Source of the DNA: Rubrivirga marina
GTDB lineage: Bacteria; Bacteroidota; Rhodothermia; Rhodothermales; Rubricoccaceae
Length of the DNA: 64,000 nt
Direction: 5' to 3'
Assembly (NCBI RefSeq): GCF_002283365.1
Contig: NZ_MQWD01000001.1
Coordinates: 2,217,665-2,281,664 of the forward strand
In this document: positions 38,899-49,805 of the stretch, one piece after another
Layout of the letters: each line of letters starts with the position of its first letter
Position numbering within the stretch: position 1 is the stretch's first letter
Notes under the pieces: model-generated
What the model saw: only the letters and a program-made list of their open reading frames with translations
What the model was told of the DNA's origin: nothing
Database searches by the model: none
Position numbers and translations under genes: made by a program

Positions 38899-40008
38899 CT
38901 AGGTGCCGGCCTCGGCCCGGAGGTCGGCGGCGGTGCGGAAGGTGTAGGCGACGGCCTCCATCTGGCGGAGGAACTCGCGCTTGTCGAGCGTCCGGTCGGG
39001 CGCGAACGTCATCCCGTAGTAGATGTAGAGGCGGTCCGTCGCCTCATCGCGGAAGGCGTAGCGGACGTACGAGCCGCCCATGACGTCGTTCGTCATGTAC
39101 CAGAGGCCGCGCTGTTCCTGGGCCGGCCGGCCGGCGATCTCGGTGGAGTCGCGCGTCGTCGGGCGCTGGTCGTCGAGCTGGACGAACGAGCTGTCGTAGC
39201 TGCCGAGGGCGAACTGCTCCAGGAGGTCGTCCGTGATCTCGTCGATCCGCTCAGGCGGCGGGAGGGCCTCGACGCCGTCGACCGAGAACACGAAGAAGTC
39301 GCGCCACGTGTCGGAGAGGACGCGCCGGTAGCGGACGAAGCTGCCCTCGAGGTCGCCCGCCTCGGCGGTCGTGTCCTGGACCTGGACGTAGTCGTACTGG
39401 ATCTTGACCCGGTAGCCCTGGTCGTCGAGGAGCTCCTGCTCGAGGTCGGTCTGTGCAAGGCGCGAGAACATCTCGCCGATGGTCCGCTCACGGGCGAGGC
39501 GGTTGTAGGCGGCGCGGAGCTCGGGCCCGCTCTCGACGATCTGCCGCGCGAGCGCGCTGTCCGTCGCCGCCGTCGCGATCGTCACGAGCTGGTTGTTCGC
39601 CCAGAGGTCCTCGCGGAGGTTGACGGCCGCGGCCTCCCCGGAGCGGACGGCCGCGAGGTTGCCCTCGCCGACGCGCGCGCGGATGAACTCGCCGATCTCG
39701 CCCTCGGCGTCGACCGGTGCCGCGAACACGAGGTGGGGCTGCATCTTGAGGTACTCGAACGACCGCGACGTGAGCGGCTGGAGCCGGAGCTTGAACGCGC
39801 CCTGGTTGTTCGGGAGCGTGGCGATCGGCTGCGCCAGCTCGGCGCGGAGCGCGTCGCCCACGGGGCCGTTCCAGGTCACGCTGTCGGTCACGACGATGAC
39901 CGTCTCGGTGTCGCCGCGGGCTTCGGGCGGGCCGGTGATCGGGTCCTCGCAGCCCGCGACGGCGAGACCGACGAGGAGGACGGACAGCAGGGGGAGAGCT
40001 CGGGTCAT
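38899..40008 (-). CDS. DUF4837 family lipoprotein
   Basis: Bacteroidota-specific exported lipoprotein of 369 residues: lipobox [10 protein letters not shown] (Cys20), start chosen at the ATG that begins the signal peptide. Two similar halves are suggested by repeated patterns. The region [11 protein letters not shown] and [21 protein letters not shown] is typical of DUF4837. Function unknown. The ATG overlaps the trpA stop codon (ATGA), so it is translationally coupled to tryptophan synthase. Confidence 0.85.
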
Positions 40009-40823
40009 GAGGGCTCGGGGGCTCCGGTCTTCAACGCGCGCGCCCAGTCGCCGATGTCCGCAAGACGTTCGGAATCGGTGAGATCCCCGTCGTCCCACAG
40101 GCGCTCGGCCTCGCGGATGAGGGCGCTGCCGACGATGAACCCGTCGGTGTGGCGCGTCAGCCGCTCGGCGTCGGCGTGGCTCTTGATCCCGAAGCCGACG
40201 AGGAGCGGCTGCTCCACGAGGCCGCGGGCGTGGGCGAGGTAGGCGTCGGTCGCGTCGTCGTCGCCGAGGCCGGACCCGGTCAGGCCCGTCACGCTCACGG
40301 CGTAGACGAACCCGGTCGAGCGGTCGTCGACGAGGCGGACGCGCGCGTCGGAGGTGTTGGGCGCGATGAGGTGGGTGATGGAGAGGCCGTGCTCGGCGGC
40401 GGCCCCCTCGATCTCGCCGGCCTCTTCGGGCGGGACGTCGGGCAGGATGAGGCCGTCCACGCCGGAAGACGCGGCGTCGGCGCAGAAGTCGCCCACGCCG
40501 TACCGAAACACGGGGTTCGCGTAGCCCATCAGCACGAGCGGCGTGTCGCTCTTGGCGCGGAAGGCGGCGGCCGTCTCGAACGTGCCGGCCATCGAGGCGC
40601 CCTGGCGGAGCGCTCGCTCCGACGCCATCTGGATCGGGAGGCCCTCGGCAACGGGATCGGAAAACGGCATCCCGAGCTCGATGAAGTCGGCCCCGGCGTC
40701 GTCGACGGTGCGGAGGATGCCGAGCGTCGCGCCGGGCGCGGGGAAGCCGGCGGTCAGGAAGAGGCCCATGGCCGTCTCGCCGCGCTGGCGGAGACCGTCT
40801 AGGTGGGCGCGGAGTCGCGTCAT
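40005..40823 (-). CDS. trpA: Tryptophan synthase alpha chain
   Basis: Cleaves indole-3-glycerol phosphate to indole, passed to TrpB. 272 residues. Catalytic Glu in [15 protein letters not shown] and Asp in the loop [17 protein letters not shown]; phosphate-binding [10 protein letters not shown] and [11 protein letters not shown]. The start overlaps the GNAT gene stop codon (ATGA) and the end overlaps the DUF4837 start (ATGA). The longer open frame upstream is an artefact. Confidence 0.96.

Positions 40824-41313: not shown

Positions 41314-41317
<4 letters not shown>
40820..41317 (-). CDS. GNAT family N-acetyltransferase between trpB and trpA
   Basis: Acetyl-CoA-dependent acyltransferase of 165 residues. 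The acetyl-CoA-binding motif A is [19 protein letters not shown] and the C-terminal motif is [19 protein letters not shown]. It overlaps trpB (ATGA) and trpA (ATGA), so it is fully part of the operon although not a tryptophan pathway enzyme. Substrate unknown. The last about 20 residues ([15 protein letters not shown] and on) are encoded by a split RLGAEA repeat. Confidence 0.9.
40838..40882. repeat. RLGAEA palindromic repeat, copy 10 (split form), inside coding sequence
   Basis: GCCCGCCTCGG and CGAGGCGGGCGGGGTC arms separated by about 18 bases, at the 3' end of the GNAT gene; minus-strand translation [12 protein letters not shown]. Confidence 0.75.
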
Positions 41318-42594
<1,277 letters not shown>

Positions 42595-42805: not shown

Positions 42806-42840
42806 GTCCGCCCGCCTCGGCGCCGAGGCGGAGGGAGTCA
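42806..42840. repeat. RLGAEA palindromic repeat, copy 12
   Basis: GTCCGCCCGCCTCGGCGCC followed by GAGGCGGAGGGAGTCA. The terminal TCA is the stop codon of trpF on the minus strand (TGA), so the element supplies the end of the gene. Confidence 0.85.
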
Positions 42841-43473
42841 GCCGGCGGTGGCGGCGTGGAAGGCGTCGAAAAAGGCGGCCAGCTTGTCGAGGTCCTTGAC
42901 GCCGGGGCTCTCCTCGACGCTCGACGAGAGGTCGACGGCGTAGGGGCGCATCGTCTGGATGGCCTCGGCCACGTTCTCGGCCGAGATCCCGCCGGCCAGG
43001 AACAGGTCGACCTCGGCCGACAGCTCGCGGGCCACGCGCCAGTTGAAGCTCTCGCCCGTGCCGCCCCACAGGCTCGTGTGGTGCGTGTCGAGCAGGATGA
43101 AGTCGACCACGTCCAGGTACGGCTCGACGACGGCGCGGATCTGCTCCGACGAGGCGTCGTGCGTCACTTGGACCGCCTTGATGACCGGCACATCGACGGC
43201 GGCGCAGACCTCCGGGGGTTCGTGCCCATGGAGCTGCGCCAGCGCGAACCCGACGCGCTCGCAAGTCCCGTTCACCTCCTCGGCGCTCTTGTTCACGAAC
43301 ACGCCGACCGGCTCCGGCCCGACGACCCAATCGATGATCTCCTTCGCCACGTCGGGCTTGACGTAGCGTGGGCTGTCCTCGTGCTGGATGAACCCCAGAA
43401 AGTCGGCCCCGGCGACGGCGGCGGTGCGGGCGTCGTGGAGGCGGGTGATGCCGCAGATTTTGACCTTGGTCAT
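42838..43473 (-). CDS. trpF: Phosphoribosylanthranilate isomerase
   Basis: Third step of the tryptophan branch, 211 residues, TIM barrel. Catalytic Cys in VKICGITRLHDA at the N terminus and Asp in FILLDTHHTSLWGGTGESFNW; product-phosphate loop FLAGGISAENV. Start overlaps the trpC stop codon (ATGA). The stop codon is part of an RLGAEA repeat. Confidence 0.95.
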   Translation of the reverse strand: MTKVKICGITRLHDARTAAVAGADFLGFIQHEDSPRYVKPDVAKEIIDWVVGPEPVGVFVNKSAEEVNGTCERVGFALAQLHGHEPPEVCAAVDVPVIKAVQVTHDASSEQIRAVVEPYLDVVDFILLDTHHTSLWGGTGESFNWRVARELSAEVDLFLAGGISAENVAEAIQTMRPYAVDLSSSVEESPGVKDLDKLAAFFDAFHAATAG

Positions 43474-44294
43474 GGCGCGGCGGGGAGGGGTTGACCGGCG
43501 AGCGCGACGGCCGTCTCGCGGCGGAGGGCGGCGAGGGCGCGGCCGGGGTCAGGCTGGCGCATGAAATGGGTGCCCACGAGGAACGCGTCGGCGCCGGCGC
43601 GGCGGAGGCGGGCGGCGGCCTCGGCGTCGCGGATCCCGCTCTCGGCCACGCGGACGATCCGCTCGGGCAGGCGCGCGAAGATCCGCTCGGCGCGGCCGAG
43701 GTCGACTTCGAACGTCTTGAGGTCGCGGCTGTTGACGCCCAGCACGTCGACCCGGTCGAGGTCGAGCGCCTCGACCTCGGCGTCGTCGTGGACCTCCACG
43801 AGCACACCGAGGTCGAGGTCGCGGGCCGCGTCCAACAGGTCGCCGAGGTGGGCGGGGTCGAGGGCGGCGGCGATGAGCAAGACCGCGTCGGCGCCGTAGG
43901 CGCGGGCCTCGACGAGCTGGTAGGCGTCGACCACGAAGTCCTTGCGCAGCAACGGGAGGTCGACCGCGTGGCGGACGGCGGCGAGGTGGTCGAGCGAGCC
44001 CTGGAAGTGCGTCGGCTCGGTGAGGACGGAGAGGGCCGCGGCCGCCGCTTGCTTGTACTGGCGCGCGACGATGGCCGGGTCGTACTCCGCCCGGATCACG
44101 CCCTCCGACGGGCTCGCCCGCTTGCACTCGGCGATGTAGGCGGGGCCGTCCGGACGGCGGAGCGCGCGTGCCAGCGACAGCGTCGGCGCGTGGAAGGCCG
44201 GGCGGCGTTCGAGCGCCGCGGCCGGCGTGACCGCCTTCCGCTCGGCCACGAGCCGGCGCGTGTCGTCGAGGATGGTGTCGAGGATGGTCGCCAT
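43470..44294 (-). CDS. trpC: Indole-3-glycerol phosphate synthase
   Basis: Fourth step, 274 residues. Catalytic Lys and Glu motifs: YIAECKRASPSEGVI, LRKDFVVDAYQLVEARAYGADAVLLI, VEVHDDAEVEAL, GVNSRDLKTFEVD and VAESGIRDAE. Starts with a one-base overlap on trpD (TGATG) and ends with an ATGA overlap on trpF. The apparent 747-codon frame running back through trpD is an artefact. Confidence 0.96.
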   Translation of the reverse strand: MATILDTILDDTRRLVAERKAVTPAAALERRPAFHAPTLSLARALRRPDGPAYIAECKRASPSEGVIRAEYDPAIVARQYKQAAAAALSVLTEPTHFQGSLDHLAAVRHAVDLPLLRKDFVVDAYQLVEARAYGADAVLLIAAALDPAHLGDLLDAARDLDLGVLVEVHDDAEVEALDLDRVDVLGVNSRDLKTFEVDLGRAERIFARLPERIVRVAESGIRDAEAAARLRRAGADAFLVGTHFMRQPDPGRALAALRRETAVALAGQPLPAAP

Positions 44295-45334
44295 CAGGCC
44301 GCCTCGGCGAGCGCGTTGGACACCTCGACGAGCGTGTCGAGCTTTTCGAGGGCCGCGCCGCTGGCGACGCTCTCGCGGGCCGCCTCCAGGCAGGCGTCGA
44401 GGTCGCCGACGTCGCCGGCGGCGAGGAGGGCGTAGGCCGCGTTGAGGAGGACGACGTCGGCCTGAGGGCCGGCCTTGCCGCCGAGGACGGCGCGGACGAT
44501 CTCGGCGTTCTCCTCGGGCGTCCCGCCCTGGAGCGCCGCCGCCGACACGCGCGCCAGGCCGAACCGCTCGGGCACGACCTCCTGCTCCAGCAGGCCGCCG
44601 TCGAAGGCGTGGCTTCCCGTCTGGTAGATCGTCGTCGGGCTCGTGGTCGAGAGCTCGTCGAGCCCGTCGTGGGCGTAGACCACGACGACGTGCTCGCTCC
44701 CGAGCCGCATCAGGATCTGCGCCATCATCCGCGCGACGCCGTCCGAGAACGCGCCGACGAGTTGACGCTTGACGGCGGCCGGGTTGCAGAGCGGCCCGAG
44801 GATGTTGAAGAACGTCCGGACGCCCAGCGCGCGGCGGACCGGCCCGACGTGGCGGAGCGCGGGGTGGAACTGCGGGGCGAACAGGAACGCGATGCCGGCC
44901 TCGTCGAGGCACCGGCTCACGCCGTCGGCGTCCAGGTCCGCGCGGACGCCGAGGCTGGACAGGACGTCGGCCGAGCCGGACGACGACGACACGCCCTTGT
45001 TGCCGTGCTTGGCGACGGGCACGCCGGCGCCGGCGGCCACGAAGGAGGCGGCCGTCGAGATGTTGAACGTGCCGGAGTGGTCGCCGCCCGTGCCGCAGAG
45101 GTCGATCGGGTTGAGGTCGGTCTCGACGGGCACGGCGTACTCGCGCATGACCTTCGTGAAGCCGACGAGTTCGTCGAGCGTCTCGCCGCGCGAGCGGAGG
45201 CCCATCAGCAGGCCCGCGATCTGCGCCGCCTCGGCCTCGCCCGAGAGCATCACGTGCATGGCCGACTCGGCCTGCGATTGGCTGAGCGTCTCGCCCTCGG
45301 CGACGAGTTGGAGAATCGGTTTGAGCGTCGTCAT
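44294..45334 (-). CDS. trpD: Anthranilate phosphoribosyltransferase
   Basis: Second step: anthranilate + PRPP. 346 residues. PRPP-binding GTGGDHSGTFNISTAASFV, then GVPVAKHGNKGVSSSSGSADVL and the KRQLVGAFSDGVARMMAQIL region. Twelve bases downstream of trpG, one-base overlap with trpC. Confidence 0.96.
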   Translation of the reverse strand: MTTLKPILQLVAEGETLSQSQAESAMHVMLSGEAEAAQIAGLLMGLRSRGETLDELVGFTKVMREYAVPVETDLNPIDLCGTGGDHSGTFNISTAASFVAAGAGVPVAKHGNKGVSSSSGSADVLSSLGVRADLDADGVSRCLDEAGIAFLFAPQFHPALRHVGPVRRALGVRTFFNILGPLCNPAAVKRQLVGAFSDGVARMMAQILMRLGSEHVVVVYAHDGLDELSTTSPTTIYQTGSHAFDGGLLEQEVVPERFGLARVSAAALQGGTPEENAEIVRAVLGGKAGPQADVVLLNAAYALLAAGDVGDLDACLEAARESVASGAALEKLDTLVEVSNALAEAA

Positions 45335-45346
45335 CGGGTCGGTCGG

Positions 45347-45946
45347 TCAGTCGGTGGTGGAAGCGGGGGCGGGCACGGCTAGCGCCGCGCGGACCCAGTT
45401 GCGGACGAGCTTTGGGCCCTCCGTCGTGAGGATCGACTCGGGGTGGAACTGGACGCCTTCGATCGGAAAGTCCTTGTGGCGGAGGCCCATGATGACGCCG
45501 TCCGCCGTCTCCGCCGAGACGTCGAGGACGGCCGGGAGCGTCGCCCGGTCGACCACGAGGGAGTGGTAGCGCGTGGCGACGAAGTCCTGCTCGACGCCCT
45601 CGAACACGGTCCGGCCGTCGTGGGACACCGTCGACGTCTTCCCGTGCATCAGCGTCGGGGCGTGGACGACGCGGCCGCCGAACACCTCGCCGATGGCCTG
45701 GTGACCGAGGCACACGCCCAGGATCGGCGTCGTCTCGCCAAACCGGCGGATGACGGCCTCCGAGACGCCGGCCTCGTCGGGGCGGCCGGGGCCGGGCGAG
45801 ATGAGCACGCCGGCCGGGGCCAGCTCCGCGATCTCGTCGAGGCCGATCTGGTCGTTCCGCACGACCCGGTAGTCCTCGGTCACGCCGCCCACGAGGTGGA
45901 CGAGGTTGTACGTGAACGAGTCGTAGTTGTCGATGACGAGGATCAC
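45347..45946 (-). CDS. trpG: Anthranilate synthase glutamine amidotransferase subunit
   Basis: Class I glutaminase of 199 residues that supplies ammonia to TrpE. Triad: Cys in ILGVCLGHQAIGE, His and Glu in VQFHPESILT. Oxyanion-type SPGPGRPDEAG is present. It could also serve PabB, as in many bacteria with one amidotransferase. Separated from trpE here by two unrelated genes. Confidence 0.95.
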   Translation of the reverse strand: MILVIDNYDSFTYNLVHLVGGVTEDYRVVRNDQIGLDEIAELAPAGVLISPGPGRPDEAGVSEAVIRRFGETTPILGVCLGHQAIGEVFGGRVVHAPTLMHGKTSTVSHDGRTVFEGVEQDFVATRYHSLVVDRATLPAVLDVSAETADGVIMGLRHKDFPIEGVQFHPESILTTEGPKLVRNWVRAALAVPAPASTTD

Positions 45947-45974: not shown

Positions 45975-46994
45975 CTAGTTCAGGAAGCCGACGGCGTCGC
46001 GGACCTGGGCCGTCACGTCGGAGGCTCGAGCCCGGGCCGCCTCGGCGCCGGCCTGGAGGATGTCGCGGACGTCGTCGGGGCGGGCGGCCAGCTCGCGGCG
46101 GCGCTCGCGGGCCTCGCCGAAGTGCCGGTCGATCATCCCGAGGAGCGCCTTTTTGGCGTGCCCGTAGCCGTACCCGCCGGCGCGGTACGCCTCGGCGATC
46201 TCGGCCCGCTCGTCGTCCGTCGCGAAGTGGCGGATCAGGGCGAACGTGTTGTCGGCGTCCGGGTCCTTCGGGTCCTCCAGCGGCGTCGAGTCGGAGACGA
46301 TCGACATCACCTTCTTCTTGAGGTCCTTCCCCTCGTCGAAGATGCCGATCGTGTTGCCGTAGCTCTTCGACATCTTCCGTCCGTCGAGGCCGGGGATGAC
46401 CGAGACCTCGTCCAAGATGTAAGGCTCCGGGAGTGGGAAGAACGGGTCGTCCGGACAGAACGCCTCGTTGAACCGGCTCGCCGTGTCGCGGCTGATCTCG
46501 AGGTTCTGCTTCTGGTCGGCCCCGACCGGCACCACGAGGTCGCGGCCCGGCGCCGTGTACGCGAGGATGTCGGCGGCCTGGAGGATCGGGTACGTCAGGA
46601 GCCCGCCGTTCGCGGTCAGCCCCTGGGCCACCTTGTCCTTGTAGGAGACGCCCTTCTCGAGGATCGCCGTTGGCGTGAGGCAGAGGAAGATCCACGTCAG
46701 CTCCGTGAGCTGCGGCACGTCCGACTGGACGAAGAGGCTGGCCCTGCTGGGGTCGAGCCCGAGCGCGAGGTAGTCGAGCGCGACGTCGAGCGTGTACCGG
46801 CGGAGCGCGTCGGCGTCGCGGAGCGTCGTCAGCGCGTGGTAGTCGACGATGAACAGGAAGGCCTCGCTCCGAGCGGTCTCGTCGTTGGCGAGCGCGATGT
46901 TCTGTCGGATCGCCCCGAGGTAGTTGCCGAGGTGGAGCGTCCCCGACGGCTGGATGCCGGAGACGATGACGGGCAGGGGGGAGGAGTCAGACAT
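45975..46994 (-). CDS. trpS: Tryptophanyl-tRNA synthetase inside the trp operon
   Basis: Charges tRNA-Trp. Class I synthetase of 339 residues, a normal bacterial TrpRS length. HIGH-like motif SGTLHLGNYLGA near residue 17-28, KMSKS motif GRKMSKSYGNTIG, and Trp-binding region SDVPQLTEL. The ATG at 46994 starts the family-like sequence; the frame upstream to 47219 reads through an RLGAEA repeat and the neighbouring gene. It lies downstream of the trp attenuator on the same strand. It may also have its own promoter, but none of the TAnnTTTG type is evident in the 88 bases before it. Confidence 0.95.
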   Translation of the reverse strand: MSDSSPLPVIVSGIQPSGTLHLGNYLGAIRQNIALANDETARSEAFLFIVDYHALTTLRDADALRRYTLDVALDYLALGLDPSRASLFVQSDVPQLTELTWIFLCLTPTAILEKGVSYKDKVAQGLTANGGLLTYPILQAADILAYTAPGRDLVVPVGADQKQNLEISRDTASRFNEAFCPDDPFFPLPEPYILDEVSVIPGLDGRKMSKSYGNTIGIFDEGKDLKKKVMSIVSDSTPLEDPKDPDADNTFALIRHFATDDERAEIAEAYRAGGYGYGHAKKALLGMIDRHFGEARERRRELAARPDDVRDILQAGAEAARARASDVTAQVRDAVGFLN

Positions 46995-47051: not shown

Positions 47052-47084
47052 TCGGTCCGCCTCGGCGCCGAGGCGGGCGGGGCT
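47052..47084. repeat. RLGAEA palindromic repeat, copy 13
   Basis: GGTCCGCCTCGGCGCC followed by GAGGCGGGCGGGGCT, directly joined to the stop codon of the 156-residue gene (minus strand). Confidence 0.85.
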
Positions 47085-47553
47085 AGCGGGGGAGGTCGGC
47101 GGCGACGCCGCGGAGCAGGTCGATCCGGGACGTCGAGGCCTCGGCGTTGTGGCCGAGGATGGCCCGCGTCCGCTCCTGGTGGTGGACGGCGTCGACCTCC
47201 TCGCGGAGCATCCCGCCAAAGTCGTTCTCGGCGTCGAGGAGGCCTTGAACCCGGTTCCGGTCGGAGCCCTCGACCACCGCGAACGCCTCGCGTCCGGCGC
47301 CGGTCGGCGGGGCGCCGCCGAGGCTGAGGATCGTCTCCGAGATCTTGGCCGTCTCCGTGCGGAGGTACGGCATCATGGCCTCGACGCGCTCCTTGGCCGG
47401 GCCGTCGGCCATCCGCGCAAGCGCGGCCTGGTAGGTCTGGAGCAGGTCGAGGTGGCGCTCGGCGACGGGGCGGAGGCGCTCGACGCTCTCCTCGCGGGAG
47501 ATGTAGCGGCCGGCGCCGCCCTTGTTGAGGATCGGTCGGAGGGCAGGGAACAT
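47083..47553 (-). CDS. Hypothetical helical protein, possibly ferritin-like, 156 aa
   Basis: Not firmly recognised. Predicted to be almost all helix, with patterns like the DUF2383/ferritin-like four-helix bundles: RLRPVAERHLDLLQTYQAAL, KERVEAMMPYLRTETAKISE, then LGGAPPTG, then NRVQGLLDAENDFGGMLREE. Putative metal ligands (His, Glu) are present but unproven. No signal peptide. It lies between trpE and trpS on the same strand, so it is part of the attenuated unit. Confidence 0.65.
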   Translation of the reverse strand: MFPALRPILNKGGAGRYISREESVERLRPVAERHLDLLQTYQAALARMADGPAKERVEAMMPYLRTETAKISETILSLGGAPPTGAGREAFAVVEGSDRNRVQGLLDAENDFGGMLREEVDAVHHQERTRAILGHNAEASTSRIDLLRGVAADLPR

Positions 47554-47631: not shown

Positions 47632-49173
47632 CTACAGCAGGTCCGACGTGGCGGAGCGCATGGCGGCGAAGAGGGCGGCGGCCTTGGCCTTCGTCTCGTC
47701 GTACTCGGCGGCCGGGTCCGAGTCGGCGACGACGCCGGCGCCGGCCTGGACGTAGGCCACGTCGTCCTTCACGACCATCGTGCGGATGGCGATGCAGGTG
47801 TCGAGCGCGCCGTCGAAGCCGGCGTAGCCGACGGCGCCGGCGTACGGCCCGCGCTTGACGGTCTCGAGCTCGTCGATGATCTCCATGGCGCGGACCTTCG
47901 GGGCGCCGGAAACGGTCCCGGCCGGGAAGCACGCCGCGAGGACGTCCGTCGCCGGCCGCTCGCCGACGGCGCCCGACACCGACGACACGAGGTGCATCAC
48001 GTGGCTGAACCGCTCGACCTCGGCGAACCGGTCGACGGAGACGGTCCCGGTCTCCGACACGCGGCCCATGTCGTTCCGCCCGAGGTCGACCAGCATGAGG
48101 TGTTCGGCGCGCTCCTTCGGGTCCTGGAGGAGGTCGGCCTCGTAGGCCGCGTCCTCGGCCGGCGTCTCGCCGCGGCGGCGGGTCCCGGCGATCGGGAGGA
48201 CCAGCGCCCGCCGCTCCGGCCCGCGCGGCTCGACGCGCGTCAGGACCTCCGGCGACGAGCCGACGAGCGAGAAGTCGGCCCCGTCGGCCAGCCCGTCGAC
48301 GTCGAGGTAGAAGAGGTACGGGCTCGGGTTGACCTGCCGGAGCGCGCGGTACAGGTTGAACTTGTCGCCGGCGAACGGCATCGCGAACCGCTGGCTGAGC
48401 ACGACCTGGAAGATGTCGCCCTCGACGATGTACTCCTTGGCCGCGCGGACGGCGTCCTCGTAGGCCGAGCGCTCGACCGAGGCGGCCGGCTCCGCGGCCA
48501 GCAGCCGGACCGGCTCGCCGGGCACGCCGCCGTGGAACAGGTCGTCCTCCAACTCGAACAGCCGCTCGGTCGCCTCGGCGTACGCCTCGTGGAGGTCGGT
48601 GTCGGCGTCGACGAACACGGTCGCCATCAGGATGAGCTGGTGGCGGACGCGGTCGAAGGCGGCGACGGTGTCGTAGAAGCCCCAGACGGCGTCGGGCAGG
48701 CCGAGGAGGTCGAGCGGGGCCGGGGGCAGCGCCTCGAGCTGGCGGACGGCGTCGTAGCCGACGTACCCGACGGCGCCGGCCGTCAGGCGCGGGAGCCCGG
48801 CGACCTCGGCCTGCTCCGTCTCGGCGAGGATCGCGCCGAGCGCCTCGAAGATGGTCCCGTCGAGGGGCTCCACGTCGTGCGCGGCCCCGTCGCCGCCGAC
48901 CACGCCGGCGGGCCGGTGGGCCCAAACGCGGTCGCCGCGGTTCTCGATCACGAGGTACGGGCTCTTGCCGATGAACGAGTACCGGCCGAGCCGCTCACCG
49001 CCCTCGACCGACTCCAGCAGGAACCCGAACTGGCCCTCTTCCCGGACCGCGAGGAACGCCGAGACCGGCGTCAGGAGGTCGGCCGACCGGCGGACGTAGA
49101 CCGGCACGGCCAGCCGCCGGCCGTCGGCCGGGAGCTGCTCGCGCACGATCGTCTCGAACTCGGTGAGGGTCAC
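47632..49173 (-). CDS. trpE: Anthranilate synthase component I
   Basis: Chorismate to anthranilate, with TrpG. 513 residues. The N-terminal LLES motif of the tryptophan-binding feedback site is intact (FGFLLESVEGGERLGRYSFIG, about residues 48-68). The C-terminal chorismate-binding domain shows VVLSQRFAMPF, PIAGTRRRGETPAED, DLGRNDMGRV and AGTVSGAPKVRAMEIIDELE. The start is a GTG 51 bases after the attenuator U-run. The unit is thus likely regulated both by enzyme feedback and by attenuation. Confidence 0.96.
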   Translation of the reverse strand: MTLTEFETIVREQLPADGRRLAVPVYVRRSADLLTPVSAFLAVREEGQFGFLLESVEGGERLGRYSFIGKSPYLVIENRGDRVWAHRPAGVVGGDGAAHDVEPLDGTIFEALGAILAETEQAEVAGLPRLTAGAVGYVGYDAVRQLEALPPAPLDLLGLPDAVWGFYDTVAAFDRVRHQLILMATVFVDADTDLHEAYAEATERLFELEDDLFHGGVPGEPVRLLAAEPAASVERSAYEDAVRAAKEYIVEGDIFQVVLSQRFAMPFAGDKFNLYRALRQVNPSPYLFYLDVDGLADGADFSLVGSSPEVLTRVEPRGPERRALVLPIAGTRRRGETPAEDAAYEADLLQDPKERAEHLMLVDLGRNDMGRVSETGTVSVDRFAEVERFSHVMHLVSSVSGAVGERPATDVLAACFPAGTVSGAPKVRAMEIIDELETVKRGPYAGAVGYAGFDGALDTCIAIRTMVVKDDVAYVQAGAGVVADSDPAAEYDETKAKAAALFAAMRSATSDLL

Positions 49174-49223
49174 GGGGTGAAGGTCGGATGGGGAGGGCCG
49201 GAGGGGGTGAAGCCGGCACCAAC

Positions 49224-49255
49224 AAAAAAGCCCCCTGCTCGTCTGAACAGTGGGC
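49224..49255 (-). terminator. trp attenuator terminator (segments 3:4)
   Basis: Minus strand: segment 3 GCCCACTG (49255-49248), 10-base loop, segment 4 CAGGGGGC (49237-49230), then TTTTTT (49229-49224). Seven of eight pairs form, plus flanking A-U/G-U pairs. It lies between the leader peptide and trpE and would stop transcription when tryptophan is plentiful. Confidence 0.87.
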
Positions 49256-49279
49256 TCGCGGAGGGGAAGCGCGTTCGCG

Positions 49280-49357
49280 TCAGGCCACAGGCCGTCTGCC
49301 CACTGAGGTCAGGGGGTGCCACCAGGGCCAGACGGTATGGGGCGCGCGGTGCGGCAT
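49280..49357 (-). CDS. trpL: trp operon leader peptide, 25 aa
   Basis: Short open frame, ATG at 49357-49355 and TGA at 49282-49280. Codons 10, 12 and 13 are TGG, giving Val-Trp-Pro-Trp-Trp-His. Tryptophan makes up 3 of 25 residues, all together. The Trp codons lie in or right after pairing segment 1, and the stop codon lies 10 bases past segment 2, so a ribosome stalled at Trp uncovers segment 2 while one reaching the stop codon covers it. The start codon is only 5 bases from the -7 box, so the mRNA is probably leaderless or nearly so. Too short for standard gene finders. Confidence 0.88.
   Translation of the reverse strand: MPHRAPHTVWPWWHPLTSVGRRPVA
49292..49335 (-). promoter_or_regulatory. 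trp attenuator pairing segments 1 and 2 (anti-antiterminator)
   Basis: Segment 1 CCGTCTGGCCC (49335-49325) pairs with GGGCAGACGG (49301-49292) with one bulged G. Segment 2, CAGTGGGC (49305-49298), shares GGGC with that stem and is the perfect complement of segment 3 GCCCACTG (49255-49248). So 1:2 and 2:3 exclude each other, and 2:3 excludes the terminator 3:4. Confidence 0.82.
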
Positions 49358-49362
49358 CGGGA

Positions 49363-49393
49363 TCAAGCTACGGCCGGTCGTCGGGCGGGGCAA
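49363..49393 (-). promoter_or_regulatory. trp operon promoter
   Basis: Minus strand: GTTG (TTG at 49393-49391), 20-base spacer, TAGCTTGA (49370-49363). This matches -33 TTTG / -7 TAnnTTTG spacing. The TAG of the box is also the stop codon of the upstream 145-residue gene. Transcription would start about 49360-49358, just before the leader ATG. Confidence 0.72.
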
Positions 49394-49805
49394 CCGGCGG
49401 GAGGGCGAGGAGGTCGCCGGGCGCGTCGAGGCCGCGGAACTGGCGCAGCCGCTCGCGCAGGTACGGGTTCGTGCGGAGCTCGCGGCGGAACTGGAGCGGG
49501 GCCGGGCGCCGGAGGCCCCGCGGCCGGTTCAAGAAGTCGCCCACGTCCGCCTCGGCGGTGAGGTCGACGTCCTCGGCGCAGACGTTCGGCATCGGGACCG
49601 GCTCTGGGCCGTCGAGGGCCAGGCCCGGCATCGGCACGGGGGTGACGTCGGGGGAGAGCGGGACGGCCATGTCGGCGCCGTAGCCGCAGTCGCGCGGGAC
49701 GAGAAGGGAGGGCGTCGCGGGCTCGCCCGCCTCGGGCACGATGCGGACGTCCTGCGCGCTGGCGGCCGTTCCGAGGGCGAGGGCGGCGAGTGCGAGCGCG
49801 CGCAT
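49368..49805 (-). CDS. Secreted proline-rich hypothetical protein, 145 aa
   Basis: Not recognised. Signal peptide (MRALALAALALGTAASAQ), then a proline-rich stretch with repeated PVPMP (VTPVPMPGLALDGPEPVPMP) and a charged C-terminal helix (FRRELRTNPYLRERLRQF). It starts 2 bases after the L,D-transpeptidase gene ends and so is probably co-expressed with it; a cell-wall or envelope role is a guess. The trp promoter lies inside its 3' end. Confidence 0.65.
   Translation of the reverse strand: MRALALAALALGTAASAQDVRIVPEAGEPATPSLLVPRDCGYGADMAVPLSPDVTPVPMPGLALDGPEPVPMPNVCAEDVDLTAEADVGDFLNRPRGLRRPAPLQFRRELRTNPYLRERLRQFRGLDAPGDLLALPPVAPPDDRP

Follow-up and report, generated by a model that had tools for sequence, protein, structure and literature searches.

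The trp operon in the 64,000-nucleotide stretch of Rubrivirga marina DNA analyzed here (the window) is very probably governed by a tryptophan-sensing, ribosome-mediated transcription attenuator upstream of trpE, with trpE-(orf156)-trpS-trpGDCFB-(GNAT)-trpA as the predicted transcription unit. As judged from the sequence, the region has the anatomy of such a device, namely a leader ORF with a cluster of Trp codons, an intrinsic terminator, and a mutually exclusive antiterminator placed just past the putative position of a stalled ribosome. In trp attenuation, stalling of a ribosome at leader Trp codons decides transcription, and by analogy the mechanism in the window should be that of the classical trp attenuator. 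An earlier note on this DNA had proposed a comparison of the regions upstream of trpE in related genomes, and its expectation was borne out: Trp runs, terminator and antiterminator recur in relatives, while the ORF upstream of the leader varies.

Leader Anatomy Upstream of trpE

Direct reading of the minus strand from 49393 to 49224 gives, in this order, a promoter-like pair, a 25-codon ORF that overlaps the first two of four pairing segments, six T residues, and then trpE. The features are the following.

49388..49393, minus strand: -35-like element TTGCCC; a TTG at N17/18 from the -10 element recurs in relatives
49365..49370, minus strand: -10/-7-like element TAGCTT, overlapping the stop codon of the upstream ORF
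49280..49357, minus strand: putative trpL leader ORF, 25 codons plus TGA (MPHRAPHTVWPWWHPLTSVGRRPVA), with ATG at 49357 and TGA at 49282-49280
49319..49330, minus strand: putative regulatory Trp codons, TGG CCC TGG TGG, codons 10, 12, and 13 (TGG at 49330-49328 and 49324-49319)
49325..49335, minus strand: segment 1 of the candidate 1:2 protector hairpin, the weakest leg of the model
49292..49305, minus strand: segment 2, of which the CAGTGGGC part pairs with segment 3 and the GGGCAGACGG part with segment 1
49245..49256, minus strand: segment 3, common to antiterminator and terminator
49224..49240, minus strand: segment 4 and U6 tract of the intrinsic terminator (T6 at 49229-49224)

The open frame of 25 codons, in which codons 10, 12 and 13 are TGG and which the earlier note had placed between the trp promoter and trpE, is confirmed. 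The coordinates proposed for the three pairings were also right. The 1:2 pairing joins CCGTCTGGCCC (49335-49325) to GGGCAGACGG (49301-49292) with a single bulged G, and the 2:3 pairing of CAGTGGGC (49305-49298) with GCCCACTG (49255-49248) is a perfect helix of 8 bp. In the 3:4 pairing of AGCCCACTGTTC (49256-49245) with GAGCAGGGGGCT (49240-49229), 11 of 12 positions are paired and one is an A-G mismatch that had gone unmentioned. Between the last Trp codon and the start of segment 2 there are 13 nt. The leader stop does lie just past segment 2, but it starts 9 nt beyond the 1:2 part and not the 10 nt initially given. The promoter-like elements are spaced as TTGCCC-N17-TAGCTT, with 7 nt from TAGCTT to the leader ATG, and the upstream ORF ends at 49368, 10 nt 5' of this ATG. 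The U-run ends about 50 nt upstream of the GTG start of trpE at 49173.

In the mechanism that we propose, RNA polymerase would start at the leader AUG or a few bases from it, and a ribosome would load on the nearly leaderless message. When charged tRNA-Trp is scarce, the ribosome would stall at the Trp codons, leaving segment 2 free to pair with segment 3, and the polymerase would read into trpE. When tRNA-Trp is charged, the ribosome would either translate across segment 2 as far as the stop codon that closely follows it, or leave and allow 1:2 to form; with segment 2 occupied in this way, segment 3 would pair with segment 4 and transcription would end at the U6 tract.

In isolation, the folding energies in the window are -23.5 kcal/mol for 1:2, -24.0 kcal/mol for the piece containing 2:3, and -16.8 kcal/mol for 3:4. 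If the Trp codons are taken to be covered by a ribosome, the RNA left free still folds at minimum energy with 3:4 and without 2:3, and the switch must therefore depend on 2:3 being established before segment 4 has been transcribed. Compared with shuffled sequences, the 2:3 helix of the window gave p values of 0.005 (ungapped) and 0.109 (RNAduplex), and three tests of 1:2 gave 0.16, 0.035, and 0.25. The helices of the window genome by itself thus stand only moderately beyond shuffles, and the strong evidence is comparative. A promoter-plus-start-codon pattern, picked after the site had been inspected, occurs twice in the 64 kb and in none of 100 shuffles. The second occurrence is at 2258-2300 on the plus strand.

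The trp Operon Behind the Leader

NCBIfam models place trpE, trpS, trpG, trpD, trpC, trpF, trpB, and trpA in this order on one strand of the window.

47632..49173, minus strand: trpE, anthranilate synthase component I, 513 aa, GTG start (TIGR00564, 522 bits, cut-off 517.7)
47083..47553, minus strand: 156-aa protein between trpE and trpS, with no NCBIfam, Pfam or PDB sequence match
45975..46994, minus strand: trpS, tryptophan--tRNA ligase, 339 aa, inferred ATG (TIGR00233, 263 bits, cut-off 177)
45347..45946, minus strand: trpG (TIGR00566, 227 bits, cut-off 121)
44294..45334, minus strand: trpD (TIGR01245)
43470..44294, minus strand: trpC, start codon inferred (NF001377, 271 bits, cut-off 260)
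42838..43473, minus strand: trpF (NF002298, 210 bits, just below the cut-off of 215)
41314..42594, minus strand: trpB, start codon inferred (TIGR00263); the open frame extends to 42678
40005..40823, minus strand: trpA, start codon inferred (TIGR00262)

The genome contains one full-length TrpE match and two that are partial and weaker. Among 18 larger trp loci from the class (L262-L279), 17 carry trpS after trpE and before trpG, so the attenuator should also control the capacity for tRNA-Trp charging. The exception, L278 of family f3, has trpE alone and comes from a genome without a Trp ORF. The 156-aa protein is a conserved unknown of the trp operon, with tblastn matches in 12 of the 18 loci at 31-73% identity. 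A GNAT acetyltransferase-like frame is seen between trpB and trpA (approximately 41220-40820 of the window, minus strand), and in the same place in two genomes of the 18-locus set, G006 and G325.

Conservation of the Trp Leader Across the Class

TrpE searches yielded matches in 6 of 9 genomes of the family (E<=1e-100), 184 of 296 of the phylum sample (E<=1e-80), and 96 of 114 of the order (E<=1e-100). From the phylum and order matches a subset was fetched, omitting those that were partial and some of the genomes at class level. Upstream regions were taken from 100 places in the class and five further loci, and 104 of these 105 had 300 bases upstream; L117, with only 17 nt, was left out of the class set. 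A Trp cluster was defined as a small ORF in which some stretch of six codons includes two or more for Trp, and a stricter set required at least three. ORFs with at least two Trp precede trpE in 75 of the 104 loci on the sense strand, compared to 12 on the antisense strand and a mean of 11.6 over 20 rounds of shuffling (largest 17). For ORFs with three Trp or more, the sense count is 56, against none on the antisense strand and 0.25 in shuffles (largest 2). Because sequences within one family are related, these locus counts are not independent events.

One could argue that the hairpin and U-run are simply the terminator of the upstream gene and that the Trp ORF is a chance frame. The proximity of the upstream ORF, whose end at 49368 falls so close to the leader ATG, invites this reading, as does the GC-rich DNA, which gives many chance frames. 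Three-Trp ORFs are, however, far too frequent in the class when set against shuffles, and a promoter-like pair stands before the leader start in many more leaders than shuffling produces (see below). Moreover, the ORFs upstream of the leader fall into 39 sequence clusters in 68 loci, the largest having 11 members, and with upstream ORFs this diverse the leader travels with trpE and not with one upstream gene. We consider a chance frame at the end of a neighboring gene extremely improbable, and retain the attenuator as the explanation of the conserved leader.

No Trp ORF was found in 29 of the 104 class loci (12 in family f8, nine in f5, three in f3, two each in f54 and f7, and one in f51). Homologous leaders lacking the TGG codons had been named in advance as evidence against attenuation; such loci do exist, and with 21 of the 29 in two families we read them as loss. 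Family f3, where L278 shows no other trp gene near trpE, suggests a different control of trpE. By eye, three loci of this family (L153, L157, L166) have a terminator-like hairpin 5' of trpE and no Trp ORF. In several of the f5 loci inspected by eye, a protein-coding frame seems to reach trpE. The f8 locus L135 seems to carry a leader that escaped the cluster definition, its two Trp codons being far apart.

Terminator and Antiterminator in Relatives

A terminator with a T-run lies downstream of the Trp ORF in 71 of the 75 class loci that have one, and is missing in four. The 71 loci cover 16 family labels, and in 69 of them the 5' arm of the terminator is 56-86 nt from the last Trp codon. Two loci (L164 and L111) were excluded before alignment since some or all of the Trp codons chosen lay outside the leader, and L136 for lack of a usable start codon, leaving 68. 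In the alignment, 527 of 552 terminator cells are paired, with A-T, G-C and G-T alternating at the variable positions, and A/G and C/T positions of segment 3 are mostly matched by segment 4. Native combinations of segments 3 and 4 are better than swapped ones in 64 of 68 loci, and in 26 of 30 after collapsing identical segment 3 sequences. L115, with no CCC in the arm, was left out of the swap tests.

These terminators bear on a different possibility, that the leader acts on translation of trpE by coupling or re-initiation and not on termination of transcription. It has been suggested that leader ORFs enhance the translation of downstream genes (PMC4833913), and in several f14 loci the terminator extends to the estimated start of trpE. 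The near-universal presence of an intrinsic terminator with a T-run behind the Trp ORF, and the stretch of about 50 nt that separates U-run and trpE in the window, speak against it, and we regard translational control as very unlikely next to transcription attenuation.

The attenuation model also predicts an antiterminator. When 2:3 was scored by RNAduplex against shuffles of the segment-2 region, 45 of 69 loci had p<0.05 (3.5 expected), with a median z of -2.4; the ungapped test gave 39 of 71. RNAduplex was added because the ungapped helix test is too strict for the longer antiterminator of family f7, which consists of two helices (e.g., CGGGTC/GACCCG and AGAGCC/GGCTCT). One f7 member has AGAGTC/GACTCT as read from the alignment, with both sides changed. 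The native 2:3 is more stable than the mean of swaps with other families in 59 of 68 loci, and than swaps within the family in 13 of 18 f7 loci. In a ten-base core test, the native pairing exceeded swapped ones in 46 of 68 loci, and in 15 of 30, the chance level, with identical cores collapsed. With f14 left out, 262 of 407 alignment cells of 2:3 are paired, a count that understates the pairing because the MAFFT alignment puts segment 2 of f7 into the wrong columns; aligned in its own register, f14 has 70 of 70. In the window's own family, p<0.05 for 2:3 was obtained in one of five loci by RNAduplex and in four of five by the ungapped test.

The protector hairpin is a different matter. Pairing of segment 2 with upstream sequence has a probability above 0.5 in 60 of 64 loci and exceeds the mean of the locus's own shuffles in 58 of 64, with p<0.05 in seven of 64. 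Four loci whose segment 2 is more than 30 nt from the last Trp codon (L095, L102, L106, L107) were left out of this test. By RNAduplex, 28 of 69 loci reach p<0.05 for 1:2, and by the ungapped test 8 of 71; the corresponding figures in the window's own family are two and one of five. Ranked by support in the aligned sequences, 3:4 is firm, 2:3 fairly good, and 1:2, the weakest leg, collective only. The earlier proposal of ribosome-mediated attenuation is thus supported by the comparison, whereas its 1:2 element is supported at the level of the whole set and seldom in single loci.

A Probable Nearly Leaderless Transcript

For promoters, we required a TTG element followed at suitable spacing by a TANNTT-like element, with a score of 3.5 or more out of 4.5; this motif was defined once the sequences had been viewed. 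Of 68 leaders, 57 have such a pair 5' of the start codon, compared to 10.2 in shuffles (largest 17). A gap of 4-9 nt between the end of the -10 element and the start codon occurs in 45 of 68 leaders against 1.8 in shuffles (largest 6), and a gap of 6-10 nt in 51 of the 57 promoter-positive leaders (51 of 68 overall). The other six promoter-positive leaders have gaps of 14-28 nt, and each has an in-frame upstream ATG or GTG at a gap of 6-10 nt. Among the 11 leaders below the score, ten have TAC-type -10 elements at gaps of 8-12 nt, and L171 has none.

In sigma-70 promoters there are usually about six bases between the -10 element and the start site, although Bacteroidota promoters may differ. 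Since the -10 element ends 6-10 nt 5' of the start codon, the leader transcript probably begins at the AUG or a few bases from it, as a nearly leaderless mRNA. Outside the class, the best-scoring gaps from -10 to start are 6-16 nt in the 15 loci listed out of 17, L250 being poor. In the 28 listed loci of the Rfam family RF01692 (Bacteroid-trp), TANNTT lies 18-22 nt from the ATG in 16 and 6-9 nt in eight. As gaps this short occur both in RF01692 and in other non-class loci, the short leader is not peculiar to the class.

Distribution Beyond the Class and Rfam Families

The leader in the window is not a member of RF01692. The covariance model of this family found no match in the window, in 20 of the loci, or in the whole genome (G000), whereas in the phylum sample it matched 29 of 296 genomes, 27 over the cut-off, with Bacteroides ihuae as the named control. 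Every one of the 29 RF01692 loci carries a Trp-run ORF; under stricter filters all are labelled with the same GTDB phylum as the window and none with its class or order. The two thus share an upstream RNA with a Trp-run leader ORF within one phylum and differ in sequence, and most of the RF01692 loci also differ in the longer distance from -10 to ATG. The Bacteroid-trp RNA is included in a table of PMC2864571.

Upstream of trp genes, T-box, TRAP and riboswitch elements likewise finish in a terminator/antiterminator pair, and the structures described above could in principle belong to such a Trp-sensing RNA that merely happens to contain an ORF. A scan of all Rfam families at the gathering threshold gave no match, T-box included, in the window or in 20 loci. 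A permissive scan of 49100-49500 (401 bases) returned only mir-344 and Bp2_287, at chance level. These scans cover Rfam families, with TRAP sites outside them. The conserved feature is, moreover, a run of Trp codons at a narrow distance from the terminator, as leader-peptide attenuation would have it, and we give a different RNA sensor hardly any credence.

Trp leaders are found in other Bacteroidota families as well. Of 40 trpE loci from these families, 19 have an ORF with at least two Trp and 16 one with at least three. The terminator score is at least 27 in 17 of the 19; L235 and L239 look like chance frames. Within L219-L255, Trp leaders occur in families f19, f22, f25, f40, f42 and f46, in some cases with WWWW, and the terminators of these leaders mostly share a core like CCCTTCT/AGAAGGG, in contrast to the CCCRCTGC of the window's class. 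These leaders possibly constitute a further undescribed family. There was no convincing Trp leader in the loci sampled from f17, f20, f23, f30, f36, f37, and f50.

Among 80 TrpE-related loci, mostly from other phyla, 78 were scanned (L011 and L038 were left out for having too little upstream sequence); 17 have an ORF with at least two Trp and five one with at least three. L004 and L005 (Bacteroidetes, Balneolaceae) have clear Trp leaders, and that of L005 resembles the f14 leaders. NCBI taxonomy assigns Balneolaceae to Balneolota in the Bacteroidota/Chlorobiota group. L004 is not an independent case, because its peptide is identical to that of L151 and it is probably the same genome. In L013 (Spirochaetales), a small ORF with IWVWW and a strong terminator are seen 5' of trpE, and this may be a Trp attenuator in another phylum. 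The remaining two of the five loci have no terminator.

In the same genome as the window, hisG is preceded by another gene and has no His leader. The ilvB and leuA family matches, the latter just below its cut-off, apparently lie behind other genes, and no cognate-rich leader was found in the 600 nt upstream of them.

Comparison With Known trp Attenuators

In Escherichia coli trpL, which we take to be Rfam RF00513, the leader stop lies before segment 2. The trp leader of the window resembles it in having a leader peptide with Trp codons, mutually exclusive 2:3 and 3:4 pairings, and a U-run before trpE. It differs in that the ORF crosses segment 2 and stops after it, in the lack of an Rfam match, in the weakly conserved 1:2, in the presence of trpS in the operon, and in being probably nearly leaderless. 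The earlier statement that the leader has exactly the geometry needed for attenuation therefore overstates the likeness to E. coli. To our knowledge, neither the class nor Rhodothermota has been known as a place for trp attenuation, and the open-access literature searched held no description of a trp attenuator in Rhodothermota or Salinibacter. A 2010 prediction by Lopatovskaya, Seliverstov and Lyubetsky (PubMed 20198868) is the earlier work closest to this subject and may list Bacteroidetes cases. The view of the mechanism as classically one of proteobacteria and actinobacteria understates its known range, as RF01692 marks Trp leaders elsewhere in the phylum.

Leaderless Trp leaders have been published. 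In Sinorhizobium meliloti, the trpL/rnTrpL RNA begins at the trpL ATG (PMC7298713). It is a leaderless Trp attenuator, as the leader in the window is predicted nearly to be, and differs in its 14-aa peptide, in having three trp operons of which only trpE(G) is attenuated, and in the trans activities reported for it (PMC7298713). TrpL1 of Streptomyces lividans (MFAHSTRNWWWTAHPAAH) is described in PMC8079986 as a leaderless WWW leader 5' of trpE. Hairpins and a U-rich stretch accompany the Trp leader there too, but trpE is monocistronic and trpS has its own leader (PMC8079986), whereas in the window trpS follows trpE in one gene run. These examples, together with RF01692 in the same phylum, limit the novelty of our finding. 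What is distinctive is the conserved, probably nearly leaderless layout with trpS behind the same switch.

Implications

With this comparative support, the range of the classic trp attenuator grows to include a class that gave no Rfam match, and several other Bacteroidota families are seen to have Trp leaders. A broader idea can be put forward, toward which we lean slightly on the skeptical side: leaderless or nearly leaderless Trp attenuation may be an old, Bacteroidota-wide design, which Rhodothermia would have fixed as a module made of the promoter, a start codon 6-10 nt behind the -10 element, a run of Trp codons, and an ORF that extends through segment 2. One sensor of charged tRNA-Trp would then serve both synthesis and trpS, and 70S loading at the 5' end would take over much of what a strong 1:2 pause hairpin would do. 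Since the leader start is nearly fixed behind the -10 element, these leaders offer a natural system for the synchrony of leaderless initiation and transcription in attenuation. Leader genes of 20-35 codons are easily overlooked in annotation. Finally, with trpS behind the same switch, a simple feedback prediction follows, in which the attenuator that senses tRNA-Trp charging would also set the capacity for it.
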